From Apteryx mantelli (Eukaryota > Chordata > Aves > Apterygiformes > Apterygidae), in contig NC_089985.1 in NCBI RefSeq assembly GCF_036417845.1, forward strand, positions 32,012,583 to 32,076,582: a stretch of 64,000 bases of DNA, in the 5' to 3' direction. This document shows, piece by piece, positions 10,630 through 62,960 of this stretch. The notes beneath the pieces are model-generated. The model was not told the DNA's origin, ran no database searches, and was given only the letters and a program-made list of their open reading frames with translations. A program made the position numbers and the translations under genes. Numbering within the stretch: the first letter of the stretch is position 1; each line of letters opens with the position of its first letter.

Positions 10630-12001
10630 GTAAGTTTTTGAAGCATTTTTTGCTCTTTCTTTAAAAATAGAACAGCAAAAGATATAATTGGAGCACTGAA
10701 AAAAGGTGACTTACACATTAGAGTAGGTGTGCTTTTATCACAATAAGCTTTTCTGAGAGAATTCCTAATTTTACAGCAGTGTTTAGCCAAAACTAAGACA
10801 TTTCTTTTATAAAAATCAAGTTTTAGTGACCAAAGTGCTTTCCCCAGCTCCCGTTATCTTTGTTTTTGTATAGTGTTGAGGGGATAGTAGCTAGTTTTTG
10901 GGTTGACAACTGTCCTATTTCTATAATCATTTCATGCTCTTCTGTCAAAAGGACTTCTGAAAAGGATTGGTACATCTAATTTAACAAAGCCTAAAGAATG
11001 TTTGGTTGGAAGAATAGGTGGATATACATATCTTTCAGATCTCCTTATTCACTACAAAGAACCTAGCTGCTCTTCATCAGATTACTTATGAAAGCCATGT
11101 CAGTTAACCGGTTAAGTTAAAAACATCCCAAAACTGAGGGGAAGGGCAACTGTGGGGGACCTTGACCTGGAAAACTATTTGGTACAAAATTTCCCATTTA
11201 AGTTAGGTAACTGTAGGATAAAAAGTTTTCATTGCAAGGTGTTCAGTACAAGTTTTATAATTGCAGCTCCAGAAGTTAACTGGTCCCAGACTGCTGCAGT
11301 ATGGAAAGAATAAGACAACTTACTCTTCTCCTCTCATCCTCCACCTGCACAGAGATGTTTGTCTTCTTTCAAGATCTCCGAGCCTCAACCGAGCATCGAT
11401 ATATGCAACCAAGCTCCAGGCATTTCACACCTCTATTCCCCTCTTAAAGAAAAAACCCCCCAAAGAACCTGAGACCAAAGACTTGGACCCAATGCAATAC
11501 CGTATGAAGTCACTAAAGGATTCTCCAAAGCCAGCCCTTTACTTAAGCCTTGCAGGGCTAATTCCATTTGTTTCTGTGCCACTGGTAATGGCCATCCAAG
11601 GGACCTATTACCCGGAGCTGGCATTTGCTCAGATTACATATGGTGCCGTAATAGTCTCTTTCCTAGGAGGAATCAGGTGGGGATTTGCTGTCCCAGAAAA
11701 CAGTCCAGCCAAGCCAGACTGGCTGAACCTGGCTAACAGTACAGTTCCTCCTTTATTTGCTTGGCAAGCCTTACTTTTTAAAGATGTCACCCATGGTGCA
11801 ATCCTGCTTGTAATGGGCTTAGGCATAGCGCTACATTATGACCTTGGCCTTCTTCCTACTTATCCTAGTTGGTTTAAAGCGCTGAGGGTAGTGGTAACAG
11901 TGTTGGCAGTATTGTCACTAATAGCCACTGCAACACTGAAGACAATTGATTCAGAGAAGCAGCTAAGTAACAGCACAAACAAATGGAAGAACACAAAATA
12001 A
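10585..12001 (+). CDS. TMEM69: TMEM69, transmembrane protein 69 (2 coding exons)
   Basis: Joining 10,585-10,629 to 11,267-12,001 gives 259 aa; human TMEM69 is about 247 aa from memory. The N-terminus has several basic and no acidic residues, so a mitochondrial targeting segment is plausible (inference). The membrane core starts around residue 100 with the SPKPALYLSLAGLIPFV block. It includes FLGGIRWG (about 147-154), the hallmark of the DUF3429 family, and ends with the LPTYPSWFKALRVVVTVLAV helix. Four or five membrane segments are likely. The molecular function of the family is not known to me. The reading frame is open to TAA at 11,999-12,001, and no frameshift is seen. It is convergent with IPP downstream and divergent from GPBP1L1 upstream. 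A start at TTG 11,261, suggested by a simple ORF scan, is wrong because it falls in the intron. Confidence 0.93.
11267..12001 (+). CDS. TMEM69: TMEM69 coding exon 2 (terminal)
   Basis: The acceptor TTATAATTGCAG ends at 11,266, and the exon opens in phase 0 with CTC CAG AAG. It carries 244 codons and a TAA stop, and holds the whole DUF3429 membrane core. Confidence 0.92.
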   Translation, partial: LQKLTGPRLLQYGKNKTTYSSPLILHLHRDVCLLSRSPSLNRASIYATKLQAFHTSIPLLKKKPPKEPETKDLDPMQYRMKSLKDSPKPALYLSLAGLIPFVSVPLVMAIQGTYYPELAFAQITYGAVIVSFLGGIRWGFAVPENSPAKPDWLNLANSTVPPLFAWQALLFKDVTHGAILLVMGLGIALHYDLGLLPTYPSWFKALRVVVTVLAVLSLIATATLKTIDSEKQLSNSTNKWKNTK

Positions 12002-16014: not shown

Positions 16015-19000
16015 CTAATGAGAAGGTGGAAGAGTCAGCAAGCAGTTTTAGGGTAAGGCCCCAATTCTGATAAGAATAACTTTTTAAGCTTAAGTACTGA
16101 AACGTATACAAAGATTGCTAAGCAAGCACTTCACAGGCTCAAATACTGTTACACTAATACTGTACATGTATGGTATTGAGAGGATTATCAGGATTAGAAT
16201 GACAGCACAAACTCTTAAACACTTTCACAAGTAGTCCAAATCATACAAGTCTGACTAAAGAACAGATCACATACTATTTATACATACACCCATCCCTTCC
16301 TTCAGTCACTGCAAGACGCAGTCTACCTCCAAGACAGAGAATGGCACACAATTCGATGGGAAATAAGGAGAACTATGTTCAATTCCAAATGCAAAATAGA
16401 ATGGAACATTGGAACTGTTTAACACTACTGTTTCAAAGAGCAGCGTGCACAAGCAATAGTAGCCAGGACTAGTTTCACATCTTATTGAAAAATAAGAAGT
16501 GTTCAAAGTGATTTTTCTAGTTGTGCTTGAATATAACTACATTTTGATGCAGAAGACAGACCACCAGTTTTTGCAGCAAAGGGCAGCTCTTACTTTTTTC
16601 GGGTGTTTTTCTCTCTCTAGTCAGAGTATTGACCATTCTGTTGCAGAAGAGGAATCTATTTCCCATCCCCCCATCCTAACTCTGAGCATTTAGCAGACTA
16701 CAGTATATCTATGCATCATCAGTACTGGTTAGCTTTCAGTTACTCAAAAGAATGCATACAGTCTTTATAAATACATTACTCAGAATAAGATTAGAAAAAT
16801 TCTACAGACTGGTCAGGACACAGACAGACCCTAAGGTCACTGAAGCTTGGCTTTCGCTGATTAACAGCTAACAGTGAAGAGGAAATGGAATTTGTTTTAA
16901 ATTGCTTCTAGCAAACTGAGTTTTCCCAGCTGTGCAACATCCCAGTTTTTTTCCTTTTTAAAGAAGAGAAACAGGCTATCCCTATAGCATCGTACACAAC
17001 GTTGATGCAATCGACATTTCTAAAAGAAAGGGACTCTACCATACCTCTTCAAAGGAGTATCTTTCTACAGTGGCAAGTGCATCTTGAGATTCATTGCAGC
17101 CTCCCACAGCATAAATACAATCGTTGAGAACAGCTACACCAAGATACGCTCTTCGGGTTCCCATTGGAGGAAGCTCAGACCAACGTTTAGATATTGGATC
17201 ATAGACTTCAACAGAACGCAACTCTACTCCTTCATTGCTGATACCGCCAACAACATAAATCAAACCTGCAGAAATAGGGTTTTCCCTATGTTAGATTTCA
17301 TAATAGATAGGTCTGAAAGAAAGAAAATGTTTGTCACAATACCCATTTCAGCCTGGCATTATGATGGTTTAAGAGTCCCAAATAAAATCATCTGTTTGTC
17401 CAGAAATAACATACTTAAAATTTTCAAATAAGTAACTAAGAAGCTCAAACACTAGAAGCTCTCATGAAAGCCAGCATTAATTTAAACAAATGCAGGGTAA
17501 AGAATTCAGAAGCCTGCAACTGCTGGGCAGGCCTGAATCAAATACTTAAGAAACACATTTATACATCAAGTCTTTAGACAAGTTTGTCTTGAGATGACCT
17601 GCAGCAACTCTTCAGATACCCACAGACACACAGACAATGATACAAGATAAATAAAACCACTGCCAGGAATGACAGTCAACTGCTAATATGTTAGTTGGAT
17701 AACCATACCGATGATCATGTAGAAACTTCTTTTAAGGGGTAAAAGGAAGGAGACTGAAAGAGAACTTTATGGCCTTTGAGTTTTGTAGAAATAAAAATGG
17801 TACCAGAAGGACAAATAAGTGGGGCACAAGAGTGATACATCAGCTTGTGCAACTGACAGCACAGTACAAGACAAAGGTAAGAATTCACAACTAAAATTCA
17901 GAGTTTCAACATCCAACAAAACCCAATCACTCTTAGGCCTCTTTCTGGATCCGAGTTTACCAATACGCACCTTGCATTTCACAACACCCAAAGCAGTACC
18001 GGGGCACAGCCATGTTTCCCACCACATCCCAACTATTCTCTTCAGGATCAAATCTTTCAATTGTGTTGCCAATCTCTGCACCAATCCAGCCGCCTGTAAG
18101 CAACAGCAAACACAGGAAAAAATTTTGTGCACAAAGTTGTGTGTTAACTGAATTTTAGACATATTGAACACTGTTCCAGGACACATTAATTTTGAAACCA
18201 GGTGTGGTATAACAGCATGCAATCTGCAAAGGAAATAAATTATAACTGAGCAATAATCAATCCACAAAGATTTGTTATACTATTGTTCATTTGAACAACC
18301 GTTTTTCAAAACTTAGATTTGCAACACAAAGGTATAATATTTACAATCAATCAGTTTACAAGTTCCATTAACTGACACCCTTAAAATCAGCTTCGCATAG
18401 GGGAAACAAAACAGTTACCTAAAGCATAGATAGCACCGTAACACGTGCACACTCCCAGTCCACAACGGGGATGGTTCATGGAAGCCACAGCAGTCCACTG
18501 CTTTGTAACAGGATCATAACATTCGGTACAGTCAAAAATCATCGAGTCTTTTTCACCTGGATAATAAGAACAAAAATGAAGACAGGGGAATGACAAATGT
18601 TTTGCACTGCAAATATAAAACCATTCTTCAACTTCTTCCAGAACAAACAACATCTGAATACAAGATCTTTCTTTTAGCTAGCCAAACAGCCAAAGTAACA
18701 AAAGAATCACCACTGGAAACAGCTTTCAGCAATAGTTCCCTGAAACTTTACTGAAAACATCAGAGGAGTGAACAGCGTTACACACTTTACTCTGAAGCAC
18801 AACTGATAGGGTTTTCAAGACCACAGAAGGTGCTCTGCAGTGAGAAAAACAATATACATATGCATTCTTTAATGATGGGCAGGTAGAGCTACCTGTCACA
18901 TCCTTGTGAAAACATACAAAACAAATCTCTCCAAGCAGGCAGACCGCAAGTGGACTGTTCTGTACCACTGTCTTTCATGCTGTGGGTTTCTGCTAAACTA

Positions 19001-22000
19001 GCCAAGAGAAAGGAACTGCTATTTCTGTGGGCTTCGTGCACCACTAGTATACCAAACACCTCTTAGTACACTTGCACATATCCATATGCTTAACCTGTGA
19101 GTCACTATGCCATATGGGAAAAGCAGCTAAGAAATGGCCAAAGGAGCCCAAAACTCACATTCATAGAGCAGTGATGGTAAAGAATGGCAGAACCCAATTT
19201 CAACCGTTATTAAATCTAAAGGCTGCATTGTCTACTGTTGTGTTCCTCAGAACCACCTACAAGAAGAATAATTTTAAAGTCTCCACCATGATTTCTATAG
19301 TAGCCACGTGCCCTTCTCCCAGGAACAAACTCAGCTCAAATTAAAGCATATAACACTGATTCCCTATATAGTCAGTAAATCAGTAAAGGACACTGCACCA
19401 AAATTTTCCTGGCTACTGAACCACAGTTAACTCATTTGTGAGGAAAGGAACCTCTGTACCTATCAATTCTTGCCTTAAAGCTAACAGAATAATAACAAAA
19501 CAAACAACCAACCAACCATACTCTGCCACTATAGTTAAGAAGCAGGAATCTACCGTACCACCATAGGGTAAGTGTTCCTAAAACATGTGGAAACTATTCA
19601 ACATTCTGACATCAAGTCACAGTCCAGATGACAATGCCTCTGATACAGGTCAATTCTTCAGGGAATTTCTAGGGGCAGTCTTTTCTTTTTAGAAGTACAC
19701 AAATGCTTTACATAGCAGGACAGGGCTCTACTGTTAGCACTGTGAACCCTCCCAAGGAAAGCGTTCATTTCAGCTGTTACCTCCAATGGCATAGACCATT
19801 CCTCCCACAACAGCTACACCCAGCCCACTCCGGGCCTGGTGGAGAGAAGACACCGTGGTCCAGTAGTGGCTGAAGGTGTCAAACCGCTCCACGCAGCTGA
19901 GGGCTCTGCTGTCACTCCAGCGTCCTCCTTGCAGTCGGGTGTATCCACCTAGAAAGCAAGTAGAAAGGCCATAACAGAGTAAGAGCTTCGCATTCATCCT
20001 CTTGCTCCTATACCTGAACCATAGGAAAACCTACAATAACCGGCATTAGCCCCTTTTAGTAGGAATCAAACTTTTTCAAGTAGCACTGCTTCTCCAGCAG
20101 ACCTGGAAGAACAGTCATCTTGCAGGTTGCTCAACTGAACACCTCACTGCCACAGTACAAATGTTACTGACTACATATTACTGATTTTCTCAGTAAAACG
20201 CAGAGACCAACCAACAGCCTATGCTACCTAAAGGGGGTGTTACTGCCCACATGGTGAAACAGGAGTATTCCTCTCCAATGCAAAACTACAGCTTTGCTGA
20301 GAAGTTGCAAAAAAATTCAAGTTATCCCATTATGTGAACTGGAATTTTCTGGTCAGAGAAAATTTCAATATACGTCTTCGATAAATGCTCTGTGTCACAT
20401 ATTTGGCAACAAAGTTTAATGGGCGGAAAAAAAATCTGCCCAGGTTATTAAAGGCTAAAATATCCTAACTGTAAACCTAAGAGAAAAGATTTCCTTTCAA
20501 ATACCACAGTATCAACCTGAGCAGATCAGGCAGTTTTATAATCAAGGCAGAGTATTGCTTTCTGTGATACAGGGAGTCTAGTCCCTGTGTTCTGCTGCAA
20601 TTTTTCTGGTGGATCTTGGCAAGTCAATTTATCTCTGGTTCAGCTTCATTTGAAAGATGCAGGCATCAGCCTCCCATTCTCCACAGTGACTCTTTGAAAT
20701 AGAAACTATAACTTCTTACTGATCCCTCAATAAAACACTGAAGGAAAGAAAGGAAGCAATCAAGCCTTTGATCTTAATCACGTGATGCTTTTGCAATTGT
20801 TAACATACTTAAAGTCACTTTTTTTATTAATACATACATGCTTTTATACTATCTTCACTTGATGCATTTCCTGTCTGGAACAAATAACATAGTCAAATAA
20901 AACTAGTATAATCCAGAACTCAAAAGACCTGAGGATTGTTTATACATACTTTGCCTTTATAAAGGTATTGCTGCTTTTGCAAAGTTTTATTTTAAAAAAG
21001 GGAAAAATATAACCTTTAGAAGAACAAAGAGTGCAGCAAATCTGCATACACCATTCTAGTAGTGAAACACTGGCAAATCTCCTGCCGATTCGCAACTTCC
21101 TATCCAAGGCAAATAACTTCTGAAAGGCAAATCTAGGCTTTGAATACCATGTTATGATGATACAAAACGTGAATTCTCCCCTTTTCTGCAACACTAAGCA
21201 GAAAGCAACTAACACAGTAACTCTGCCCAATGAACCATTTTGATATTTTGGTATCTTCTAATCAAACAAAGAGAGCTCAGTATCTCTTTCGGTATTGTAA
21301 TATGAGATACTACTATATCGTTTGTTTTACAAAGTTCAAACGGCCACATTCTAACCTACTGCATAAAGGTACTTCCTGGCTTTCCTCCGGGGACGAGCTT
21401 TAGAAGCTTGCAGAAAACTGCTGACCTTGTTCTCTTTGGGAGATTTACAGACTTCACAGTATTCTTTCAACAGAGTTTGCAGGGCCACCCGAAGGCTGAA
21501 ATCTGGAACACCTTGAGATGTAGAAGATCAAAAAAGGCATAATGAAAAAAACAGAAACAACAATGACTAACTCATCTATGAAAAAGCTGCTAGCTTCTCC
21601 TAAAGCAGCAGACAAATTAAGCATATCTTTATAATTTTTTCAAAAACTTATTTTTAAAATATGCTTGTGCTCATTTGTTAAGAAATGCAACTTGTTTGAT
21701 GTAAAGTAATTCTTTCCACTCATTGTACTATTAATCTAAGAAAAGAAAAATAAGTCCCAGTAACCCTGAACAACACACAGTTCACACAAATATCTGACAT
21801 TCTTCCTTTCCTTCCTTCACTTACCTTCTATGTATTTTAAGAGTCTTTGTGCTGGTAACAGAGGGAATCGAACAGGCTCCAGTACTTCTACTACATGTTT
21901 CTTTCTTTTCGCCAGATCCTTCAGAATCCATTGCATTGCAGCTATAAAAACCTGGTACTCATCCTCTATGCTTAGGTCCTCACTTCGCAGGATCTTAATC

Positions 22001-22756
22001 AGCTGCTCCTTTGTCAGCGCCAGGAATTCCTCCCCACTCTGCACCTCCAGGAAGTGTGCATGGATGTAGCTCTCGGTGAACTCCAACAAGTCATGGCAGG
22101 CAATCTGCTCGGAGAACTGGAAGAGGCCGATGCAGTTCAAGGGGTCGATCTGTCCCTTCAGGAACTCGCAGCAGAGCTCCACGACCTCGGTGAGCTGCAG
22201 CATGTCCGCGGCGACTATCAGCTCCTGAACGTTGTGCTCCCCGATGCTCACCACTCCTGCGGGCACGCACACCACAACGGGGCCCCGGTGTCGGCTGCGG
22301 AGGACGCGGCACCCTCCGCCCGCGCACACGGCGCGGTGCTGCCGGGCGGGCGCAGCCGTTGCGCGACCGTTACCCGGGCACGGCAGTTGGGCGACCGCCA
22401 CCTCGGCGGCCCCCGCCGCCCCCTGCCAGCGCGCGCGCGCCGCCGCACGGGGCCCCGCCGTTACCTGTGTAGATGAAGTCGAGGAGCGTGTGGAAGGTGC
22501 CCGCCTCGACGCCCGCGATCCGCACCACGTCGCGGCCGGACTCCTTCATGCCCCCCGCGAAGAGCGCCGCGAAGTAGGGGCTGCTGGCCGCCAGCACCAG
22601 GCGGTGCACGGCGAACGCCTCCGGGCCCACCTCCAGCCGCACGTCGCAGAAGCTCTGCCCGCCCCGCAGCCGGTTGATCTGGGCCAGGAGGAGGCGGGCG
22701 TGCCGGTCCGAGGAGAAGGGGCTCCCGCCGCCCCGCGCCGCGGCGGCGCACGCCAT
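15790..22756 (-). CDS. IPP: IPP (KLHL27), BTB-BACK-kelch protein, 8 coding exons
   Basis: Eight exons with consensus splice sites join without a frame error into 584 aa, the length of human IPP as I recall it. The N-terminal BTB domain (about residues 30-140, with FCDVRLEV and HRLVLAASSPYF) is followed by BACK (about 140-290) and six kelch blades (about 293-584, with repeated GG doublets and conserved Tyr and Trp). Proteins of this class bring substrates to CUL3 ubiquitin ligases; IPP was named from a mouse transcript driven by an IAP retrotransposon and is reported to bind actin. The start is ATG 22,756-22,754 in the CpG-island exon, and the stop is TAA at 15,790. The first six splice junctions split a codon after base 1; the last is in phase 0. 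No damage is seen. The call is firm because the C-terminal kelch sequence, ending SRCEGGVAVL, matches IPP closely. Confidence 0.96.
17045..17265 (-). CDS. IPP: IPP coding exon 7, two kelch units
   Basis: The 221 bases encode LIYVVGGISNEGVELRSV through VERYSFEE. The acceptor is TTTCTGCAG. The donor GTATGG at 17,044 leaves phase 0, unlike all upstream junctions. Confidence 0.96.
17971..18093 (-). CDS. IPP: IPP coding exon 6, kelch blade
   Basis: The 123 bases encode GWIGAEIGNTIERFDPEE through RYCFGCCEMQ. It is a symmetrical phase 1-1 exon with donor GTGCGT at 17,970. A longer ORF in another frame over this exon (17,767-18,267) is spurious. Confidence 0.95.
18419..18556 (-). CDS. IPP: IPP coding exon 5, kelch blade
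   Basis: The 138 bases encode EKDSMIFDCTECYDPV through YGAIYALG. It is a symmetrical phase 1-1 exon with acceptor ATTATCCAG and donor GTAACT. Confidence 0.95.
19781..19948 (-). CDS. IPP: IPP coding exon 4, kelch blade
   Basis: The 168 bases run from GYTRLQGGRWSDSRALS to GGMVYAIG. It is bounded by phase-1 splice sites at Gly-Gly, so it carries one blade unit. The acceptor is TTTCTAG and the donor GTAACA. Confidence 0.95.
21356..21511 (-). CDS. IPP: IPP coding exon 3, BACK end and linker to kelch
   Basis: The 156 bases encode VPDFSLRVALQTLLKEYCE, a basic linker with RPRRKARK, and the opening YLYAVGG of the first kelch blade. The acceptor ends CTCAAG at 21,512; the donor is GTTAGA at 21,355, a weaker site. 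Confidence 0.93.
21825..22256 (-). CDS. IPP: IPP coding exon 2, BTB end and BACK
   Basis: The acceptor GTGCCCGCAG precedes GAGTGGTGAGC; the donor is GTAAGT at 21,824. The 432 bases encode GVVSIGEHNVQEL through LLKYIEG and are flanked by phase-1 junctions. Confidence 0.95.
22465..22756 (-). CDS. IPP: IPP coding exon 1, first part of BTB
   Basis: It contains 97 codons plus one base, ends FIYT-G and has a GTAACG donor at 22,464. It is very GC-rich, as expected for a CpG-island exon. The frame stays open upstream of the ATG (see findings), but the resemblance to other IPP proteins begins here. Confidence 0.92.
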
Positions 22757-22835: not shown

Positions 22836-22920
22836 CCTGGCGCCGGCGGCTCCGGCTTTGCCCTTACACGCCGCGAGCGGGCGGGGAAGGGGGGGGGGAG
22901 GCGGCTGCACCGCTCATGAG

Positions 22921-23130
22921 GCGCGTGCGCAGAGGGCGGCGGCGCGTGCGCAGAGGGCGGCGGCGCGTGCGCAGAGGGCGGCGGCGCGTGCGCAGAGGGC
23001 GGCGGCGCGTGCGCAGAGGGCGGCGGCGCGTGCGCAGAGGGCGGCGGCGCGTGCGCAGAGGGCGGCGGCGCGTGCGCAGAGGGCGGCGGCGCGTGCGCAG
23101 AGGGCGGCGGCGCGTGCGCAGAGGGCGGCG
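22921..23130. repeat. Ten tandem 21-bp units with NRF1-like cores
   Basis: Ten apparently identical copies of a 21-base unit beginning GCGCGTGCGCAGAGGG follow one another, then a five-base partial copy before the sequence diverges at 23,136. The lack of visible differences suggests recent expansion or homogenisation. Each unit, on the minus strand, reads TGCGCACGCGCC, one base short of the NRF1 consensus. Because 21 is a multiple of three, the array opens long repetitive ORFs in several frames on both strands; these are not genes. It lies 165-374 bases upstream of the IPP ATG. Confidence 0.95.
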
Positions 23131-23230
23131 GCGCGCCGTTGGCGGGAGGGCGCGCCCCGCCCGCTGAGGGCGGCCGGTGCCCGGCAATGGCGGACTTCGT
23201 CAGAGCTGGCTCGCGGAGCTGGCCTGTCTG

Positions 23231-34392: not shown

Positions 34393-34398
34393 TTTATT
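34393..34398 (-). terminator. RBP: RBP poly(A) signal
   Basis: On the minus strand this reads AATAAA, 97 bases after the riboflavin-binding protein stop codon. It predicts a short 3' UTR of about 120 bases. Confidence 0.75.
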
Positions 34399-34494: not shown

Positions 34495-34731
34495 TCATCT
34501 TGTCTCTCCCCCTTCCTCTTCCTTTAGTTTCTCAAACTTCAGGAGTTTCTTTTGGCAGGCACGCTCCTCACTGCTGCTCACACTGGAGCTTTCCTCTGAG
34601 CTTTCGGATAGGAGATACTTGATTGCCATCATGTCCTTCTTGTTCATTTGCAAGCAGAGGCAGGAGGATTCGCTCACCTTAAATGACTCCCCCCACATAC
34701 TCTGGCACATGTCGGTCCCATTTACATACAT
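34495..34731 (-). CDS. RBP: RBP coding exon 5 (terminal), phosphoserine segment
   Basis: The acceptor TTTGACACCCAG ends at 34,732. The 78 codons run from MYVNGTDMCQSMWGESF through the SESSEESSS-V-SSSEE cluster to EEEGGETR, then TGA. Nine serines lie in the cluster (202-214). Confidence 0.96.
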   Translation of the reverse strand: MYVNGTDMCQSMWGESFKVSESSCLCLQMNKKDMMAIKYLLSESSEESSSVSSSEERACQKKLLKFEKLKEEEGGETR

Positions 34732-37700
34732 CTGGGTGTCAAATAAAAAGTGCAGCGATTACATTTAAAAAGAATTGAGTAAAAATTAATTTGTATTAGA
34801 TTGGTTAACATTTATCTTTTTTTTTAAAGTGGTACTAAATTATTAAAAAAAAAAAGCAATTTGCAGTCATCCAGACACTCTCTTGCTATGTGCCGTGCCT
34901 CATCGCTTCTGAGAGATCTTAAAATATTATGCAGTCACACCACTGGCAAAAGATATTTGCCTAGTGCGAGGGCAAGTCATTAAACAAAGTGCGAAGTGAT
35001 GAATGGCCCAGCCCTTTGTTTCCACCCAGGGTCTGACAGCCCAGGCAGCTTTCTGCATCTGACAAACTAACGCTGTGCGTGAGACATGTACAGCTTGCAG
35101 CATGTCAGGACGCTCTGACATGTCTTGTGATCTGAATACTGCTGAAAGTGCCAGACTGACTGTTTTGAAAACTGGAATCTTTTTATCTACAGGCTAGAGA
35201 CAGCCCAGTGGATTCACAGCTCCCTGGGATCTCACTGTGCCTGCTGCAATGTACATCATGACTGGGCAGGACCTCACAGATGAAGAGGAAGGACAGAGCT
35301 CAGAAACTGCTTGAAGAAAAGAAGACAGACAACTGTGGTCCCCCAGCCTGCCTTCAAAGTGCTGTGTCTGATGGTGCACAGAGCTTTCTGGCTCAAGAAA
35401 GTGTAAACTGCAGCTTCTTGTGCTCTATGCAAGTGAATCTGTCCTATTCTTGATACTACATCATTTTGTAAGGCCTGTCTGTCATAGCACCAGTGTGACC
35501 ATGCAACAAAGAAATATCTTGCTTGCCAAGCTTACATCATGGCAACCTCCTGTCCTCCCAGCTTGAGTATGCCTAAGGAGTCTTAGCTTAGGAGTTATCA
35601 TGTCCAGCTGCAGACTGGCCTGGATATGCACTTTATCTTGCTTGCACATCTCCCATGTGTTTGTGGTTGAAGTTCAATCTTTTCTGTTTCAATAAAGGAG
35701 ACTTTAGATACTCCCAGAAGCAAAGGTAAGAACGAAGTTGGGGGCGGGGGTGATGACTGGAGTAGAAGCTTTGTGAATTAAGGAGAGGGAGTGTTGTTAA
35801 TGAGTGAAATGGGACCAGGCAGCAAGACTGCTGGGCTCCATTACTGTGTCACTGATTCACTTTGCCACCTTGCCCATGTCACCAACACGTCTCTGAAGGA
35901 AGCTGTGTTTGATCTGTGATAGTACAAGTAGTCTTTGTGTATGACATTGATTCTTTAATCCTACAGCATTTCTCTTAGTGCTGTCATTTCTGGAGAGTGT
36001 GCTGGGTTACCGCTGTCACTAGCATATATAAAGATCTGATTCTGTGCTGTCATCACATAACCTTGGAGAACTTGCCCTTTCTTTATGGTTGGGAGATTTC
36101 TGCAGGAAAGGTGCTCTGAGTGCAAAAAATTAATGATTGCAAATGTAAGTCTACTGTGTGGAAGTGGGACTGGGCATTGGTAGTCCTGCAGCTGCTTCTG
36201 CTCCACCCATTTTCCACAGCAAGCTCTTCTTACATGGGGTCTCCTTGTCTCCCTGCAGGCAAAGCAGCGCTGACTGGGACTGTGCAGGTGGGCAGAGGAG
36301 ATCATAATCATCTCTTTTGACTTAGAAATCTGTCCTTTCTGAATAATACAGAGTCCATTCCAATAGCCCCACAGGCTCTGTAGGCTGTAAAATAACTTTT
36401 CAGTTTACACTGGCCCTAGCAGGGACTCACTCTATGGAAACTGCAGTTGCTGGAGGAGGAGTGCAGGGGCCTGCTAGTGCCCTGGGAGCAACAGCAGAAT
36501 CAGGAAGGGAAAGGCTGGAGCATCTAGTTTTCTCCTTGTGTTCTCATTGCAGCTAGATCTTAGCTGTGTCTTCCCCCCTGTTCCTGTGCTTTTAAGCAGC
36601 AAGAGCCATTATCCATCAGCTTCTGTACAGATCCTGGATTTCTACCTGCTTCCGGCTAATCAGTTCAGAAACTATTAAAAAAACTGTCCTGGGTTTTCTT
36701 AGGTCCTTATGTAAGAGACTATTTGTATGTCCCACAGGCTCTGTAACATCTATTTATGCTCTTCTGCCTGTTAAATTAGTCATTTTATTTTGACCTTCCT
36801 GCTAACTCTGCTCAAAATCAGAGCGTAGCCAGAATGCTGCAGCAAACAAACACATCCCACAGCCCACTTAACAAACCTGTCCCTAAATTACTGCAGAGGC
36901 TTCTAATTCCTCAGCTTCTTGGACAATGTGCTAATCTGTGCACTCACATCACTTGGGGAGTGCTCTGCTGGGAAAACAATGATCGAGTGTGCCTCATAAA
37001 ATTTAAGACAGACCAAATTAGGCTAAAACTGGCTATGATCCATTGTACATTCTTAATATTTAACATTTGTTCCAAATACTCCTTACAACCACTTGCATAT
37101 GTCAAATGTAGAGCTGCTGATTGCTCCTCCATATGAGCTAAGGGCATCTAAAAAATAAAGCATCTGTCTACAGCGCTCTGACATTGGAGAAACTTTTGTG
37201 CCTTTTATGTAATAGTAACTTTCCTTCTATGAGTTCAGTCTAACTAAATGAGTCGAGGGTTTGTGTTATCATTTCCTTTTCACATCTAAGTGTGGGGTTT
37301 TTTTGATTGTTAGGAGAAAAAATCAGTGTTCCTGACCGTTACAATGGAAATAGGCAGACTACTTTTGGGTTCGGCTATTAGCTTTTTAAAATTTATTATT
37401 GTTTAATATAGAAAAGAAGAAGGAAAAGTTAAGATTTGGTTTTTCTAGCTAGCAGAAACTTTGATTGAAAAGAATGGCCTTGCACTTTGTGTCATCATTT
37501 ACAGATGTACAAGGTGTGTAATAATACACTCCGAGGGTTACCAAAAGCGCTGTATTGCCTATAATTAGCACTGCAGAGTGCTAGGTATAGGTCATGCTTC
37601 AGATAATGCAGAAAAAGGACGGCTGAACGCTCTCTGGGCAGTCTTTACCTGTTCACATCACAGCTCTATTCAATCCTGCTGACAATGCTACCTGTTTACA

Positions 37701-40700
37701 CAGCTGCAGATGACCATCATGGACGGCCATGTAAGCCCAATTCCTTTTATTTCTCATTTTAATTAATTTTAGTATGAGGTGCATTTTCTCTTCTTCACTC
37801 TATCTCCCTGCTTATTTGCATTTGTTTTTCTATATAGCTATTATATATTAATTTCTTTAGTTTGATCACTTCTCTTGTTCTCTAAGGACAAGTCTATACG
37901 TCTACAAACATATATTTAACTAGTACATAAAATGGGTTAAGACTGTGGGTTATGAGGAATAAAGAACTATGGGATAGCTATATAAAACTGTCAGCTGCTA
38001 CTGACTGTCAGTGTGGTGGAGAAGAAGGAAACAACAGTGCTGTACATGTTAACAGTAATTCTGAATAGAGGAGGGGACTTGTCTGGGTAGAATAAGGAAC
38101 CTGAGACTTCTGAAACATCTAATCTGAAACCTTCAGGCAAAGAAATACAAATTATTCCAGTTACCTACCCAATAACCTTACATTTCATGAGTCAATCTGA
38201 GGCTGAATTGTTGAAAGGCCATATAAAGACCTCTTCATGTGTTATTTCCAGCCTTTATCTCCTGTGATCTGCAGACCAAGTCTGAACAGCCAATAAAAAT
38301 TTATAATATTTATTTATCACTTACTTAAAAGATATCCAACATAAAATAACCCACAAACTATCCTGGATATGTCATTATTAAGCTAGTGTTATCAGTTAGT
38401 TGTTCCACTGGGACATGTATTAACTAAATATATTAGGATGTATTAAAGATGTCTTGTGGGTTTTGTCTGAAAATAAATGGCTATTGCTTGAAAACTGGTG
38501 TAGAGTAGCAGGGAACCTGCTCTGAAGAAACATCATCTTTACTCTTACTTATCATACAAGCTTATTTTTGGTGAAAAACACAGGCAGTTTAGGGTGTGGT
38601 TCTAGGTTTAGTTTAGGAATGGCTGCGCCTGGCTTCAAGTGATAAGACTTCTGGATTTGCTGCATGTTTTTCCCTGTAGATGGTATATTTTCTTTAATAA
38701 ATAAGTACCAATGAATTTAGGGTTGAAACCTATCTCTGGGCCAGGGACAGCTTGAACAGGGACTGGAGATTATTTATGGAGATTATCATTTGACTTTCAC
38801 TTCAGCTGGAGCTACAGATGAGTTAGCACATCTGGGAAACTCAGCTGTTAGTTTCCACAGCCACTTGGTTTTTGGCCGCCTTCTTAAGCCTGCTGATTAG
38901 TGTCACTTTTGTAAGGCAGACACCAATCCTGCACTAACTTGACTGTGACTTCCACTTATATCAGTTTCTGAACTGACTTCTCTAAGTACGAGAACATGAA
39001 CCACATTCAAACCAATGAATCTCGGATCTCTGCAACCCCTATCACCAGTCCTTAACCACTACACATTAGTCCTGTTCAGTTCTTTGCTTTGAACAGTTTG
39101 CATGTGCTCAGTGAAGCTCAACTCTTAATAATATTCAAATAATTTTAGCAGTCTTGAGCTGTATAAACTTGCCCTGATCCTAAACTTGAGTATGTCACCA
39201 GAAAAACTCCTATCAGACACTTAAAAGGTCTGTGGATCATTTTGTTCCTAGAAATCTTGTCAGTCCTCATTTTATACACTTTTGTTCATAAAATTAGTTA
39301 TCCCAGCCACTAAACTCTCTCAGAAAGATGGGCTGTGCTCCCAAAAGGCTTGTCAGTGCTGCTCTTTAACCACCAGAGTAGGCTGGTAGAACAAAGTTAG
39401 CTCTGTCTAGCCCTTGGCAGACACAGTGGAGAACATGCTGCAGAGATATCATAGGTATATGGAGAATAAAAGGGAGACAATTAGAAGAATGTAAGGAATT
39501 TGAGAGGGGTTTGGAGGATGGAGAACTTGAATATAATAATGTAAAATAGAGAAAAGGGCAAGGAATGCCTAATAGGTGAGAAAACCTTAAAAATTCCTTA
39601 GTGATTTGGGAATATACTTCCCAATTTCAAAAGAGAGAGGCATGTAAAGCCCTATGTCATGTAAGGAACTTTGTAAAATGTAACTCAGTGTCTCTTTTTG
39701 TTAGATGACCGAAGTTCATTTATCTTTTACTACCTAAATCCCACTGTGTTTAAAATACCAGTGCTGTTTGAACTTTGTCATTGGCCTTCTACTTTGTTTC
39801 CCAATAGTATGAATGGTGATAAATAGATGTATGATAAATGCATGTATATATATAGAGAGATCTACATAAATATAAATGTTTTAAAATTTATATTTTAAAA
39901 AAATCTGGTGTAGGTATAGCTTGAAATCACTGAAGTAAAAATAATGTACCTATTGCATTTTACACCCACATATTCAAGCAAAAAACTCAGATTTTTTAAA
40001 GCCATGTTTGATTGACCAGGTTTTCTTACCTCACTGTATGGGATGCAATTATTCTTACACTGGTTTGCTCCACTTTCATCCCATTCCCAGTCCGTCAGCC
40101 AGTTATGAACACATATGGAATCATCTTTGCAGGCTTCATACCTTCATGGAGATTATTGTGGAAGAAAAAGTTATTCTTTCACTGTTTTTCAGTGGGTTAT
40201 AGAGATTCAACTCAAAACATTTATGTGGCCTATGCTAGTAACGTGGAATGATCACATGGCACAGCTGAGCAGTCTTCAAGAGATGTGCACATTATCTTAG
40301 CTTTACATGTAAGTAAACTCTGAACTGGTCAGGAAGACCTAAATACCAGTGAAAACTAAACAGTTCACCCATTGCATTTGATACTCACAGATTTATGTAA
40401 AGGGCTTATGTTCTGAGGAGCAACACTCACTGATGCAATGTTTTCTGCTTGGTTACGCTTGCTGATGTTCCTGAGTGGAAGAAGTATTTCTTGTATGGGA
40501 GGGAGCTTTTTGAATGCTGATGGTCAGCACTGTGACATGGAGCAGGCACCCTAAGAGTGAACTGTCCTGTGAGGGTGATGGTGGGAGTGTTTGTATTTAT
40601 GAATTAAGATGGGAAGGGAAGAATGATAATTCTTGGGCAGGGGATTGCTGTGAAGAATGTTTATTGAAGTAGGGAAAACCCATAAGCAGAAAATCATACA

Positions 40701-43700
40701 AACTAACAGGGTGTCAGCCCTAGAATCATACTCTCAAAGAAGTTAACCTGGAAGTGAAGGAGGAAAGTTAAGGGTCATGTAGGGTATAGAGTCCAAAATG
40801 TTTATATTTTGAGTGATTTTTAAGTGATAATGTAAAGAAAAGCCTGGAAATAGGCTAGAACCAGTAAGGTGTACAACTGGCTGGTCTATGTGATGAGACA
40901 TCACATGACTTATCATTATTCTAGATCATTTCCTTCCTTCCACTTCTTTTATGTTCTACTTTGAAGGCCACAGCCTTCAAAAAGTAAGAGTATCTCAATA
41001 TGATATTTAAAATTAATGCATTTGGATATCTTTTTTCTACGTCTTTTTTAATCTTCAGGGTCATGTTTCCAACACTGCTTTGAAATAATGAGGGCTGCTG
41101 AATTTACGTTTTTAAGTGAAAGATGTATTCACATAACTACAGGAACTAGACATTGCAGTACATCTGCACATGTAGAAAGTTAAGAACATGCACATCTGAA
41201 GAACATTCGCATGTTCTGAGCTTTTTGTGCTACAGACCACCTTTACTGTATAGTGCCTGGAGAATTAAGCCACAGCCTGCACCAGGTGTTGGTTCTAGGT
41301 GTTGGTTATTACAAGTACAAATACTAATCACAAGTGCTTAGACCAGTCCAGGCACATTAGAAACTGACCTTTAGTACTTTTTATTACAGTGGCGACTAAA
41401 GTGATTTTAAACATATTTGCAGTGCAATGCACACAGAAGCTATACAATAGCATTAAAATGTTTTCTCATTGAAATCAGTTTTCAAAAGTCAAGGTTTACG
41501 CTGAAGGACTGGCCAGACAAAAAGCTCTATTGTGACTCAGTGACTTATTAAACACCTACGTTGCAAAAGTTCAGCTTTTCAAAGCTGCTCTTTGACACAA
41601 TGACCAGAACACTAGTTCCTGCATATTGTAGTGGTCACAAGTCATTGCTTTCTTTCCAAAACACTCCAGTTTTTTTCTGTCTCTTTGCCTTGGTGGCAGG
41701 GTAAGGACAGAGTGAGTGGCGGGAGAAAGAGCAATGCCAGATGAAGAATAGTCAGGATCTGGACTAAACAGGTTTGGGGCAGAAGACAGAGGTATTCTCA
41801 TATGTGTTCATCCATAAATCTGCTGCCAGAGCTAGGGGCTCTGCTGGAAATACAAGCTGCAAATTGGTAAATTAACATAATATGACACTAATAGCAGGTC
41901 CTGCCAGTTTGTGTCATGACTGAATTTGGGAATAGGGACTATAATTGGTTTGTTGGTTGTTAGTTGCTGTGTATAGCCTGACTGAGAAATAAATACAGAG
42001 ATAACTCCCCAGTGAGAGCTCTTTCTCCAATAATACTCACTTTACCTGCTTGAAGGCACACCAGAGTTAGGAGCATGAACACAAAGTTTTTGTTAATCAC
42101 CATCTATGGACTCTCCACATACCAACATCAGATTCAACAATCGCCCTGGATTCCTCAAGCCATGTAGGCATGTCCTTTACTTTAAGCGTGCACTTAAATT
42201 CATTGCTTTCCAGCAAAGTAGTTCAACATATACTGTGAGCTGCCTAATAGTAGCACTTCCACTGAAAGCAGCTGTGCCCTTTCCACGGGCTTTTTTGTTT
42301 GCTTGTTTTCCTTTCTTATTTGGCTAGGTATTTTTCAGCTTGATGGTTTCTCTGACCAGGGTTGCTCTGTGGCCTCTCAATCAGCACTGCTGGCACATGG
42401 GTGGGGATGGGGTAGGGGAAGGAATGAGCAGCCTGGGGTTGGGAGAGGCAGAACTGCTTCTTTTGAAGTCAGTGTCACCTTCAGTTATACATTTCAAACT
42501 TATGAATATGTATTGCAGAGTTTTACTGAGCTGAAGCATTTATGCTAGATATCCTTGGGAATCTGAAATAGGTATGTTTGTTAAAGTATTTTTATTTTTA
42601 GTCACTGTTACCTATTGAATTGTCACATGAAATATTTCCTAATTATGATCATTGCCTGGCTCTGTGGTTTGTTATATAAGCAGGCAGCAAAGCATAGTTC
42701 TATTTTTACGTTTTTTTTCTTTAGTCTTTTAGGAAGTAATTATGAAGCTAAGTTTATGAGAAATCATGACTTCTGAAAGTCTGATTCCTGCTGCTCAGAA
42801 ACCCATAATTAGTTTCTACAAACATTAATTAAAACCTGTGAGAAACATAAACATAAATACTTGAAAGATCCTCCCCTACCATACTAGCTGCCCATGCACA
42901 CCTGGTAGGATATTTTTATTTTAAAGCTATTTTTTCATTTTTTAGAATTGGCCTTTTCCCTTTTAAATGGCGCAAGGGCATTTCACAGGTGGATCAGAAA
43001 GCATCTTGCCCATAAGGCTTTTAGAAAAGCGATAGTTTTAGGACTAGTGGGAGCAAGGAATCCTAAGACAACAGGAAGAAAGGGAAGGCCCTAAGCTAGT
43101 CAGATGAATTTCTTTTAAATGAAGTTACCGCTCATTCAGAATCCTCTGCACATTTCTGGCCACAAAGACATACAGTATGCAGCAGGCACACTCACGGCAT
43201 GTAGAAAAAGTAGGTCACATCACTAGCAGTGCTACAGCACGCTAAAAGGACTTCAATGAATAGAAAGTGAAAAAATGTGACTTTAAATTGCCAGAAAGAG
43301 TAGGAAATCTGTCCAAGCTCTTTTCTAGCCTCTGGCCTTAAGCAGGGTGAGGAAGAGGGATTGACATTGGCATTGGGCAGGCATTCAGGCTAGCATGCAC
43401 AGTAATGGGTCATCTTTACATTTTTGATTCAGGCAAGGCATCTGTGACACCAACAGGGGCAATAGATCATTGTTCAGTATTTGTTTAGAATAGAGCCTGC
43501 TCTCTGCCAGGAGACTGTCAGTCCTGGAAAAGGGACTGTTTTTCCTGTATAGCAGCTCTCAATCTGCTGTAGCGCATATACTTCCCAATAACAAAAGTTA
43601 CAAAATGCTATGTACCTGGAGGTTCTGGTAAGAATCAGGGGAAACTGAGGGTTTTGTGATGTAATATTGACCCACAATATACATTTTGTGTATATGAGAT

Positions 43701-46700
43701 TTCTCATGTATACTGAGGCTGGTTTAAATCAATCCATCACTGTGAAAAGACTTTTCAATGGATGCGAACTAAATTTTCAGGTTTCTTTCATCTCTATGCT
43801 TTTATTGGATATAGCAACTTGATGATGACTTTGATGTGATGACTGATGTGGATTCTACTTATATTATTTTGAGATACATTTATTTTAGATATTGGTATTC
43901 TATCACTTTGCCTGTTAGGCCTAATCTAAAGCCACTGGAAACTCCAATGCCCAAATATTCAAATCCTTTCAAATTTTGTAATATTTGATTCTGAGGTTTG
44001 AGGTTCTGAGTACTGAGTCAAATTCAGGATCTCAGTCCTTATCTTCAAGGCAGTCAATAATCTGTATTCCGTTTAAAAGATTACCAAAAATTTAGGAAGG
44101 AGGACTGCAAATGACAAATTGTTCCAGAGACACATGGAATTTCCTAACACAGAATTTAAATTCATCACTAGAGGAAATTCTAGGGAAGCTAATAAATATA
44201 TCAGCCCTTATCACTATCTTCCATTCCAAATGCAGGCTGTGTTTCTTGCTTCCTTCTCTGGCACAAAGCAATGCAGACAAATTTAAAGACAAATCCTACC
44301 AAAATACGGCACTGCACACATTACTTTCCCCTTGCAGAGAAGATGAAAGTGAAAATGGATCCATGTGTCAAATAATAGTGAAGTTGCATAAGCACTAGGG
44401 AAAGCGCTGTACAGAGCAGCACAAACCATGCACTACCATGTGTCCTGTAAATTCTATGCTTCCAAGAAAAGCTCTTTTATAACATTTTTAGAAGTATTAA
44501 AACAAATTTCCATGATTTTTAAAGCAGCCCAAGGGATTCAGACATTCATGGTTAATTATTTTCAAGGCAAGCTAGCAGTCTTAATCCTATAGTGTGAACA
44601 GCCTGTGCTGTTTGTACTACATTTCACACCAATTTACCCATATGGACAAGTTACTGTGGTTACTAGGCACAAACCCAAAAGACAACATTAATGTGATGCT
44701 GGGTTTTATATATGCAGGGATGACATTATTTAAAATCTAACATCTTGTAACAGTCTTGGAGGGAGATGTACACTAGATACGGATCACTAAAACCTCAGCA
44801 CCCCACCTGGATATAATGCTTCTACTCCAAGACTAAGGCCAGATAGGTGCCCGGCTCTCCAACTATATGTCTTGCACTGAAAAATAAATGCGAGTCCCTG
44901 ACCCTGTATTTTGGGAAATAGAATGAAATGCTGTTATGCTTGCTCATTATTATTATTATTTTTAGCATTAGTTGGCTGAAAGTTTCTCTGAGAGTCAGGC
45001 TTTTAGACTTAGTTTTAGCAGAGAGGGTTGCTGGAAACAAAGAGAAAAGGCCAAGAGTAAAAAATGAACCTAATTTGTTGCATATATGAATTTAAAACCA
45101 TAGAGGAAGTGGCTGCTTTCATGATTTCATAGTGCACTTCATACATAGAGAGATAAAAGAAATACATCATGAACAAGTATTTAGAATTAAAATGCTAACT
45201 GCATAATCTGTATTTCAAAACTCGCAGACCTAGATTTATTGAAGGGCAGACAGGCCCCCACTGCTGCTAGTGCCTGTCAGCGTGGTGTGAGCTCCTCCGT
45301 CACATCGTGCAGTTCTGGTGCCCCAGCGCAGCTTCCTCACTGAGAGCAGGGCTGTGCTGCCCTTGAGTCCCTAAACTATGACAGAGACAGGCTCCATCCT
45401 GATTCAGCCTGTGACATTATTATTTTGAGGGTAGTAGCTTAACAGAGGAAAACACAGAGGCAGCAAACAATGGACAAGAAAAACAAGTGAAAAGTAATAA
45501 AGCTGATGCAACACTATAGAATCTAGTTACCGCTTGCTTGGGAGCTCTGGGCTTTCACAACCTGAGTAATAGAGGCATATTAAAGCTAAATGGAAATACT
45601 TTGATAAAAAGCTGAACCTACCAGTCATCACAGAAGCTTTGACACAATGGAACAGATTGAATAGCAGCAGTGTAGTTGGGATGGATCCAGTGAGCAGCGT
45701 GTGGAGAACACCGGTAAAAGCACTCAATTTTCTTTGTGAAATCTTCACAGCTGTGACAGGGGAGAAAAACCACAAATAAACCTGTTTCTTAGCATCAAGG
45801 TTTTAGCCTCAGTTTTCTAGGCCTGCTTTGATGTGGATGCAACATTACAGATTGGGAGAAAAAACTTAGAAAGGCATCTTTCTACCCTGTTTGTGTCTAG
45901 GTTCCAAACTCATTCCTTTGGCATTGTGCACAGCCTCTGACCGTGCAATTACCATAGCCAACTGAAGAGTGCACAAATGTTTCCATGCATATTTCAGCCC
46001 TATTTGTGTAAGCTTTCCATAAACTTTTGAGGCCTTGAGTTTTCCTGGCAAGAATGACTCAAGGCAATAATAAAATGTAGCTTAAAACTATAGTACAAAA
46101 CTTTTTCTGTGTTGTAGTCTCATGGTTTCTCTAATCTGTAGATTTTCTCACCACCAGCTGAAGTTACTTAAAAACACATACTGTTGCTGCTCTTCTGGGA
46201 GTGGCAGGCCATAGTGTTACTTTTGCACATCTGTTTTTCCTTAATTGTTTTGTACTTTCATTCTTTTCCTTCTATAACTTGCCATGTTTCACAGCTCTAA
46301 CACCTAACAAGGTACTAAAAGTCTTAATTATGAAGACATTCTTCACGGTGACAAAACCCACAGCACTACATGAATTTTTCTTATAAATATACAGAAGTTT
46401 CATTTCTGGTCTCTTTTGTGCATTTTGTTTGCAAGGCTTAGTCATCTAGTTGATCTGCTTCCTAAAGAAGGGAAGAAGCCTTGCCTGTATTAACTAGGGG
46501 TCACACTCTCCAGTATCTGATGGCTGCTTTGCACAGCTACAGAAGTGCAGTGTGGTTGTTACCTACTGGGTTTATGACTACTTTGCATTGCCAGATTTCA
46601 GAAGAACAGACAGGTCTGGTTCTAAAATGAAAGAAAACTTTATAAAGCATAATCCTTTCTTATAAAATGGCATGAATCATTCTGCACAAAGAGTATATGC

Positions 46701-47974
46701 TTAAGGATTCGTGGACTTTTGTGAGAGGAGAAAAAGAAAAGCAGGACTTTGGTCTGGTGAAGAGAAACATGATGGGAACTAGGGTGGGTGGTATCCATCA
46801 TCCCTAGGGCGACCTAGCGACTTTCCATCAGCAACTCCAGGGGGAGTTAACACTAGCTGTGTAGCTGCTACAGCAAAGCTCTAACGAACCAGGACGTAGA
46901 CAACATCAAAGCTGACTTACGATTTACTGAGCTGCCCACATCTGTTCCAGTAGCTGTTGTTTATTTTAATTACTGGGGAATGAGCCAATTGCTCTGTGAA
47001 GTTTGCATAGCAACAGGAAGCTGTTAGGAATGAAACAAAGATCTTGCAATAAGGATTTTCTTTAACACTATATTTGGAAGACTGAAAATTTAAGATGAAT
47101 CTTTTTTGGCCAATAACAAGATAAAATCTCTTGGTACTAACTAGAAGAACTACTCAAGCTCTTACATTTTTGGCTTTGGAAGTAGCAGTGTGAAGGCTAA
47201 ATGAGATGAACTGGTGTCAATATTTCTTTGTAAAGATGTACAGCTCACTCCCCTCCCCACCGAGTAGTTCAGTATTGTTTAGGCAAATGTTATATACTGA
47301 GGAATATTAATTTTGAAAGCTATCAAACATAACAAGAGAATTAAAGAAATGTAATAAATATACCTGCTATACTTTGCTTATTAGGGAATTTTGATTTTAA
47401 CCTCTTGCAGTTGGTGTCTGCTACAATTAATTAAACAATGCTGTTTTTAATACGGCCATGTAGGGACATACACAGGGACAATAGCTAATTCACTAGTACA
47501 ATCAAGAGGGAAATAGGTATTTGAAATATGCTTATACTTAACCAAAATAGGCCAAATTCATCTTTGCTGTAAACTTAAGTAGATGGAGTTAAAGAAAGAA
47601 AAATTCACATCAGAGTTTTTAAAAGATAATAAATAAAGCCAATGGGAGTTTTGCAACTGACTTCATAAGAAGCAGAATTTGACTCTTCACTTGAATGCAG
47701 CAAAATGCCAATGAGGGAAGCTTTTCACATGCAACTTCTGCTGCATCTTATATATTTTCAAGAAATTAAAGGAACTGCCAGGACAATTAATGAGTACCAA
47801 GCTGTATTTTGAGACAAAAATTAAGCCACTCTTACATTCAGAATACAGAGTGCATTCCTGCATGTTTGGCTCAGGACTTGGCCTCAGTTTGTGAGTTTCC
47901 CCTTCCAGACAGCTGTACTTTCTGCAGGTAGATGACGTTATGACAGCAAAGAGGGTGACAGCAAACCGCAACAT
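34495..47974 (-). CDS. RBP: Riboflavin-binding protein (egg white/yolk), 5 coding exons
   Basis: Five exons with good splice sites join in frame into 238 aa, the length of the chicken precursor as I remember it. The secreted protein binds riboflavin and carries it from plasma into the egg; it is a folate-receptor-family relative (retbindin is the mammalian paralogue). A signal peptide of about 17 residues (MLRFAVTLFAVITSSTC) comes first. Eighteen cysteines follow it, matching the nine disulfides of the chicken protein. Conserved sequons lie at N53 and N164 (mature 36 and 147 by chicken numbering). A serine/glutamate cluster at 202-216 matches the phosphorylated segment needed for oocyte uptake. 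The frame is intact, so the gene looks functional. It is oestrogen-driven in hen liver and oviduct; I did not identify a complete oestrogen response element. No single ORF shows it because each exon is short. Confidence 0.95.
40030..40141 (-). CDS. RBP: RBP coding exon 4
   Basis: The acceptor ends at 40,142 in TCCATGAAG, with a weak pyrimidine tract. The donor is GTAAGA at 40,029. The 112 bases complete W123 and encode YEACKDDSICVHNWLTDWEW, then DESGANQCKNNCIPYSE. Plus-strand ORFs over it are shadows. Confidence 0.93.
45622..45750 (-). CDS. RBP: RBP coding exon 3
   Basis: The acceptor CCCCTGTCACAG ends at 45,751 and the donor GTAGGT starts at 45,621. The 129 bases encode CEDFTKKIECFYRCSPHAAH, then WIHPNYTAAIQSVPLCQSFC and DDW. 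It contains six cysteines... of which C81, C90, C94, C116 and C120 are encoded wholly here; the count is five. An NYT sequon is present. Confidence 0.95.
46921..47020 (-). CDS. RBP: RBP coding exon 2
   Basis: The acceptor ATTCCTAACAG ends at 47,021 and the donor GTAAGT starts at 46,920. The 100 bases encode SSCCYANFTEQLAHSP, then VIKINNSYWNRCGQLSKS. It holds the conserved sequon NFT and an additional NNS. Confidence 0.95.
47836..47974 (-). CDS. RBP: RBP coding exon 1, signal peptide and mature N-terminus
   Basis: ATG at 47,974-47,972 opens MLRFAVTLFAVITSSTC, then RKYSCLEGETHK and on to CTLYSE plus one base. The donor is GTAAGA at 47,835. A good acceptor (TTCTCACCATACAG) ends at 47,993, so this exon may extend to 47,992 with a separate leader exon upstream. 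Confidence 0.95.
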
Positions 47975-48009
47975 TGTTGGTCAGTGCTTTTCCTGTATGG
48001 TGAGAAGAC

Positions 48010-48017
48010 TATTTATA
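48010..48017 (-). promoter_or_regulatory. RBP: TATA-box candidate of RBP
   Basis: The minus strand reads TATAAATA, 36 bases upstream of the RBP ATG. If it is used, the 5' UTR would be only about 5-15 bases. The acceptor-like sequence just downstream (ending at 47,993) offers the alternative of a leader exon farther right. Confidence 0.35.
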
Positions 48018-58260: not shown

Positions 58261-58857
58261 AAGCGCCATTTGCCAAGTGCCGCCCCACAGGGAGCCCGCT
58301 GCGGGGCTCGTCCCCGTACGGCCGTTTTCCCCTTTTCCGTTTGCTTCCCAACGGCACTCTGGGCCCGGCCAAGGGGAGCCGCACACCACAGCAGCTCCTC
58401 ACCACTCCTGCCCCGTGCACTGGGGCGGGCAGCAGGGAGCCGTGCGGGGCAGGGGCCTTTTGCCCTACGGGGAGGAGCGCGGGCCCGCGGCGCCCCCACA
58501 GCCCCGCAGCGGCGAGCCCCGGCCGGCAGCGTCCCCTCAGCGACGCCCGCGGGCCGCCGCCTTCCCAGCGTGCTCCGCGCCGCTTCCCGCCTCGCACCTC
58601 CCTCCCGCCCCGCGTGCCAAGTCTCGCGCGCCCCGCCCTCCCCCCTAAGTCTCGCGCCTCTGCCCGCCGCTGGGCCCGCGCTCTCGCGATAGGCGGAGCC
58701 CGGCGGGGGGGCGGCGCCGCTGCAGCCGCGGCGCCCGCGCGCTCCTGACAGGCGGGAGCGGCGGCGGCGGGCGGGCATGTCCCTCCGCCCCGCGCGCAGG
58801 TGGTGGCGGCGGCGGTGCCGGCGGCGCCGCCCCGGCTCTCCGTGACTCCCGCCGGCC

Positions 58858-58923: not shown

Positions 58924-59100
58924 ATGAGGAAGGGCCGCTCCCGGGGGGACAAAGCGGCGCCGCCGCCGCGGAGGGAGCCGGGGCGGGCGGTGGCCGCCAG
59001 CGCGGCGGAGCGGAGAGCCACGCTGCTGGGGGGCGGCGGCAGGAAGGAGCCGGAGGACGCCAGGGCCGTGGGGGCGCCCTGCCGAGAGGCGCTGGAGAGG
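58924..59100 (+). CDS. MAST2: MAST2, first coding exon (partial gene)
   Basis: ATG at 58,924 (G at -3) opens 59 codons that end exactly at a GTAAAA donor at 59,101, phase 0. The human MAST2 first exon also encodes about 59 residues by my memory, beginning MKRSRC; here it is MRKGRSRGDK. The segment is basic and Pro/Ala/Gly-rich, with no folded domain. MAST2 is a microtubule-associated serine/threonine kinase with DUF1908, kinase and PDZ domains, none of which lie in this window. The name rests on position next to IPP, strand, exon length, phase and the weak N-terminal resemblance, so it is likely but not certain. Confidence 0.75.
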
Positions 59101-62100: not shown

Positions 62101-62379
62101 CTACCAATCCCTTGCTCATGATTTTTCCAGAGGAGTTCTAGTTAGAAGCGACTCCATTGTTTTGATGGTCCATGTCATTTTCTTTGTACCTTTTACAGTT
62201 CTGTATCAGCTTGGAGATAGTGATGCAGGGATCAGAGGAAACAGGGTTTGGGGAACAATAATCAGGACTGGCTCTACAGTATTTTAGCATATGATCTTCT
62301 GTGAATTTATTTAGCGCATTAGATCTTATTCTTTGTTCTTCTAACATCTGCTTTTGTTGTCTGTCTGTCTGTCTCGCTC

Positions 62380-62960
62380 CCCCCCGCCCACTTGGCAATC
62401 CTTGAGAATTGAGCTGGTGCTTTCATGGAGCTGCCTATAATAACTCCACAATTGCTCTTATTCAGTGGTAATAGCTAGTTCAGAGTCTGTCATTGTGTAT
62501 ATAAATTTGGGATTTTTTTTTTTACACTGTACATCACTTTCTGTATTTATCTGCATTTAATCTTATCTGCTGTTTTACAGCCCACTTACACAGTATCATT
62601 AAAGTCTCCTTCAGATCTTTGGCCATTGCTTTTGCAACCTTGAATAACTTTAAACATTGTCAGCAAACTCTGTCACGTAAGTGTTGAGTTTCTTTGTTAG
62701 ATTTCACTTTAAAATATCTTAAAGGTATTGATCCTAGAATGGATCCTTGTGGAGTTCCACTGGTGATCCTTCTTTTTTGTGAAAAAGACCAGTTATTCCG
62801 ACCTTTTATTTCGTGTCTGTTAATCACTCATTAATTCACAGCAGAATTGTCTTTCTTATCTCACGACAATTTAGTTTCATTGGGCCTCTAATGTGGGGGT
62901 CTTTGTCAAACATAGCCCAGCTGGATTTCCATGAAGTATCAGCTTAATCATCATGTGCTT
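62380..62960 (-). repeat. Decayed CR1-like LINE fragment, antisense
   Basis: On the plus strand, GTCAGCAAACTCTGTCAC (near 62,659), GATCCTAGAATGGATCCTTG then TGGAGTTCCACTGGTGATCC (62,730-62,769) and GGTCTTTGTCAAACATAGCC (near 62,899) are in the order of reverse-complemented CR1 reverse-transcriptase sequence. Many frame breaks are seen. Confidence 0.75.

Follow-up and report, generated by a model that had tools for sequence, protein, structure and literature searches.

The closest described counterpart of the locus analysed here is the riboflavin-binding (carrier) protein (RBP) of chicken. In its mature form this protein contains 18 cysteines, which make up nine disulfides, and it begins with a pyroglutamate. 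An acidic serine cluster in its tail is phosphorylated, which assists the oocyte in taking up the protein. The flavin ring is reportedly sandwiched between Tyr75 and Trp156, as Monaco 1997 is said to have described. RBP mRNA is reported to be 66.92-fold higher in the liver of laying hens than in that of pullets, and the protein to be present in yolk and vitelline membrane (PMC6839265). In rd/rd hens, a change in the donor site of intron 3 is reported to cause skipping of exon 3, so that functional egg protein is missing; the eggs contain too little riboflavin, and embryonic death occurs at days 13–15 (PMC5836443). A turtle riboflavin-binding protein is also mentioned in the literature (PMC4172855). 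This indicates that the RBP gene is not confined to birds.

The second system for comparison is retbindin (RTBDN), the gene for which stands head to head with MAST1. The protein is described as a retina-specific riboflavin binder that is homologous to chicken RBP, with 27% identity over 135 residues (PMC9298789). Two gene lists for the horse give the order DNASE2, MAST1, RTBDN, RNASEH2A (PMC10378902; PMC12291906), and a list for human chromosome 19 gives RNASEH2A, RTBDN, MAST1 (PMC11321361). A frog gene likewise carries the name Rtbdn (PMC11342244).

Here, we analysed a 64,000-nucleotide stretch of DNA (the window) from the kiwi Apteryx mantelli. We are virtually certain that it contains an intact orthologue of the avian RBP gene. 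As such a gene is already well known from chicken, this main claim is not new; what is new is solely a link to retbindin, which is unproven. By analogy with chicken, RBP would be made in the liver and oviduct of laying females, would bind riboflavin in plasma and egg white and would provide the embryo with vitamin B2 by way of yolk and albumen.

The riboflavin-binding protein gene and its product

The coding region comprises five exons on the minus strand, listed in transcript order together with the polyadenylation signal:

47836..47974, minus strand: RBP coding exon 1, with ATG, signal peptide (about 17 amino acids) and mature start; ends in phase 1; 38/46 residues as in chicken RBP
46921..47020, minus strand: RBP coding exon 2, with a length of exactly 100 nt and an intact gtaagt donor; ends in phase 2; 31/34 residues as in chicken RBP
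45622..45750, minus strand: RBP coding exon 3, 129 nt; contains Tyr92 (mature Tyr75); 40/43 residues as in chicken RBP
40030..40141, minus strand: RBP coding exon 4, 112 nt, preceded by a weak acceptor (AAG); 30/37 residues as in chicken RBP
34495..34731, minus strand: RBP coding exon 5, with Trp173 (mature Trp156), serine cluster 202–214 and stop; 68/78 residues as in chicken RBP
34393..34398, minus strand: polyadenylation signal AATAAA, beginning 97 nt beyond the RBP stop

Between 47974 and 34495, these exons of 139, 100, 129, 112 and 237 nt join without a frame break into 717 nt including the stop codon, which encode a protein of the secreted type with 238 amino acids. The exact coordinates of the coding sequence thereby bear out the five-exon gene model of the preliminary description. 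All four introns (815, 1170, 5480 and 5298 nt; phases 1, 2, 2 and 0) follow the GT-AG rule. The splice sites had been called consensus throughout, which holds for the four donors and for three acceptors (CAG, preceded by 14 to 16 pyrimidines), but not for the weak acceptor of exon 4, which ends in AAG and has pyrimidines at 12 of the 20 preceding positions. When chicken RBP was searched against the window with tblastn, the same five exon pieces were recovered (E 8e-17 to 1e-23), and neither a second RBP copy nor a leftover exon was detected in the window at E values up to 1. A search of the window for RNA families gave no match at gathering thresholds.

The spliced product aligned with chicken RBP (PDB 6hce; gene 396449, chromosome 8) from residues 1–238 to residues 1–238 with an E value of 2.5e-145 (485.9 bits), which excludes chance for this full-length match. 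Without gaps, 207 of the 238 residues (87%) are identical, leaving 31 substitutions. The search of solved structures returned 11 distinct sequences at E values up to 1, namely RBP, nine chains of folate receptors or Juno and one chance match (E 0.15). The best match was RBP and not another member of the folate-receptor family, the best folate receptor or Juno chain reaching 89.6 bits (E 2.7e-24). The outcome that the preliminary description had named as a refutation, a closer match to such a member, thus did not occur among solved structures. Pfam assigned the product to a single family at E values up to 0.001, Folate_rec (PF03024, 1.1e-58).

The two proteins share their length of 238 amino acids, the cysteines, the flavin-stacking aromatics and the serine cluster. 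All 19 cysteines of the kiwi protein are in register with those of chicken RBP, which together with the full-length match supports the identity proposed earlier. The count of 18 cysteines given at that time applies to the part after residue 17, whereas the total is 19. Mature Tyr75 and Trp156 are identical to chicken RBP, and in the tail cluster at 202–214 nine of nine serines are kept, the one change being M211V.

Differences were found at several positions. N-glycosylation motifs occur at 53, 67, 105 and 164, and those at N67 and N105 are additional to the chicken protein. At the mature N-terminus (residues 18–19, window positions 47918–47923), the kiwi protein has RK where chicken RBP has QQ. 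With R in place of Q, a pyroglutamate could not form, provided that cleavage takes place at the same site. Residue 143, encoded in exon 4, is W in the kiwi protein and R in chicken RBP; the aligned position is also W in folate receptor alpha and Juno.

Neighbouring genes and the relation to retbindin

The gene had been placed between IPP and MAST2. The following features flank it:

11261..11998, plus strand: gene for a DUF3429 protein, TMEM69-like (Pfam E 8.4e-43), the far neighbour
17039..22545, minus strand: gene with Kelch repeats and a BACK domain (Pfam), presumably IPP, downstream of RBP
58924..59100, plus strand: candidate first coding exon of MAST2, with ATG and 59 codons followed by GT, in a CpG island and head to head with RBP

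Nine frames of the window were compared with Pfam and five of them gave a match. The frames of the left neighbour matched BACK (2.3e-31) and, in three frames, Kelch_1 (2.8e-25, 6.9e-9 and 2.6e-7), while a BTB match (0.0026; 18.4 bits) stayed below the Pfam cut-off of 20.5. The Kelch and BACK domains support the proposed left neighbour; the gene at 17039–22545 fits IPP, and the DUF3429 gene at 11261–11998 fits TMEM69. A CpG island lies upstream of the IPP-like gene's coding region and contains a 21-bp unit that is repeated 10.3 times with 100% matches (22920–23135). These perfect copies suggest a recent expansion or an assembly effect.

On the right side, MAST2 is the probable neighbour, judged from the candidate first exon. 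This exon has the same length as the presumed human MAST2 exon 1 (59 codons), and its score against that presumed sequence was reached by 12 of 5000 shuffles, the candidate having been picked after the tblastn search. In tblastn itself its match was not significant (E 7.5), and the query scored slightly better at 10045–10122 (E 6.2). When MAST2 was sought beyond a first exon, a presumed N-terminal stretch of the human protein gave no tblastn match better than E 1.6, and the peptide of the candidate exon had no match among solved structures. The assignment of the right neighbour in the preliminary description is therefore probable rather than established. Just upstream of the candidate exon, a GC-rich 59-bp unit is present in two copies with 77% matches (58654–58771). 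Four of the nine frames lacked a Pfam match at E values up to 0.01, and two of these lie to the right of 50 kb (50320–50610 and 62141–62422). The former, which is on the minus strand, is an open frame of 97 codons in the gap that separates RBP from the candidate MAST2 exon; it may be due to chance.

RBP is accordingly flanked by an IPP-like gene on one side and by a probable MAST gene, compared with MAST2 alone, on the other. Retbindin also adjoins a MAST gene, but in its case this is MAST1. That RBP lies next to a probable MAST2 and retbindin next to MAST1, each pair presumably arranged head to head, suggests that the two are genome-duplication copies of which mammals kept one. According to this scenario, a riboflavin-binding ancestor related to the folate receptors stood beside an ancestral MAST gene and was copied in the early vertebrate genome duplications; egg-laying sauropsids kept the MAST2-linked copy for their eggs, while mammals such as human and horse lost that copy and retained the MAST1-linked one for use in the retina. 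We regard the chances of this scenario being right or wrong as evenly balanced. Birds may have lost the reverse, MAST1-linked copy.

Alternatively, retbindin might be the direct mammalian orthologue of the kiwi gene that has moved to another chromosome, which we consider unlikely. Its homology to chicken RBP has been published (PMC9298789) and would fit such a move. The same applies to a five-sequence test with a presumed retbindin sequence, in which the best partner of retbindin was RBP (66 bits for chicken, 61 for kiwi); Juno reached 42 bits and folate receptor alpha 36. Nevertheless, duplicated blocks explain the two MAST neighbours, MAST1 and probable MAST2, better than a move does.

Based on this presumed sequence, retbindin is 25% identical to the kiwi protein and 28% to chicken RBP, and it shares the motif GTD[M/L]C with the kiwi protein. 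RBP scores higher with folate receptor alpha and Juno (109–112 bits) than with retbindin, and in the same alignment retbindin has Leu at both the Tyr75 and the Trp156 position. Fast change in retbindin could explain both its low score with RBP and the Leu residues at the stacking positions.

The preliminary description had read the locus as marking where mammals lost the gene or egg-layers kept it. The absence from mammals was already in print, since chicken RBP on chromosome 8 has been classed among genes lacking mammalian homologues (PMC6839265), and retbindin had been left out of that reading. The wording that there are no mammalian homologues is too strong, because retbindin is one. A duplication origin of RBP and retbindin is not stated in the titles and abstract beginnings of the literature matches listed, and among the matches for RBP with MAST2 or IPP no paper combines RBP with MAST2. 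The words retbindin and riboflavin are absent from a history of the folate-receptor family (PMC4807442), and neither RTBDN nor MAST1 appears by name in the main text of a 2026 paper about genes that birds lack (PMC12954441).

The anchored position of RBP shows where remnants could be sought in monotremes, marsupials and placental mammals, and it offers a way to test whether retbindin is its partner from a genome duplication. The position is also relevant to a 'riboflavin carrier protein' that is reported from the serum of pregnant women and from tumours (PMC7072493). Should mammals have lost the MAST2-linked gene, these reports would need another source protein.

Integrity of the locus and kinship with folate receptors

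It is very improbable that the locus is a decaying copy, with the working gene elsewhere in the genome. The weak acceptor of exon 4 could be taken as a sign of decay, but the introns are present, so that it is not a processed copy, the 717 nt are free of frame breaks and early stops, and every functional position that was examined is kept.

The possibility that the gene encodes a folate receptor or a Juno-like protein instead of a riboflavin binder is practically negligible. Both share the Folate_rec family with the kiwi protein, identity to folate receptor alpha amounts to 57 of 166 aligned residues, and blastp gave about 32% identity with folate receptor alpha and Juno (FOLR1, IZUMO1R). However, among solved structures RBP outscores the next match by about 400 bits. 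The folate-anchoring residues Asp81 and His135 are replaced by Ile and Leu, respectively, in the kiwi protein. Sixteen folate-contact positions of folate receptor alpha were compared, and its own chain has the expected letter at all 16; the kiwi protein keeps six of them and chicken RBP five. Folate receptors alpha and beta carry a C-terminal GPI signal. The kiwi protein has an acidic, serine-rich tail and a charged C-terminus (ending in KLKEEEGGETR) without a hydrophobic stretch, and thus has no GPI signal. Identity as a folate receptor or Juno was therefore rejected, with the match to RBP being far stronger and 10 of the 16 folate-contact positions changed. We also set aside the archosaur-only 'green' group of folate receptors (Grayson 2015), in which 15 folate sites are reported to be fully or nearly fully conserved (PMC4807442), since the kiwi protein lacks the folate sites conserved there.

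Transcript start and exon numbering

Upstream of the ATG of the RBP gene, one further feature was noted:

47975..48017, minus strand: TATAAATA motif (first base 48017) and acceptor-like CAG (47995–47993)

The TATAAATA motif lies 43 nt ahead of the ATG, and the acceptor-like CAG ends at 47993. The segment 47975–48017 can be read in two ways, as a core promoter followed by a short leader or as the 3' splice site belonging to an untranslated exon 1, and the transcript may start further upstream than 47974. With regard to the oestrogen-induced liver expression that characterises RBP, the window contains no perfect oestrogen response element, and within 33–60 kb only two similar sites with two mismatches were found, both of them in intron 3.

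The exon lengths also bear on the numbering used for chicken. Skipping of coding exon 2 (100 nt) would break the frame, whereas skipping of coding exon 3 (129 nt) would not. The RBP mRNA of rd chickens is reported to carry a 100-nt deletion. If so, the published exon 3 would correspond to coding exon 2, with an untranslated exon 1 upstream. In the kiwi gene, the donor that follows the 100-nt exon reads gtaagt, and a broken donor of the rd type is thus absent here.
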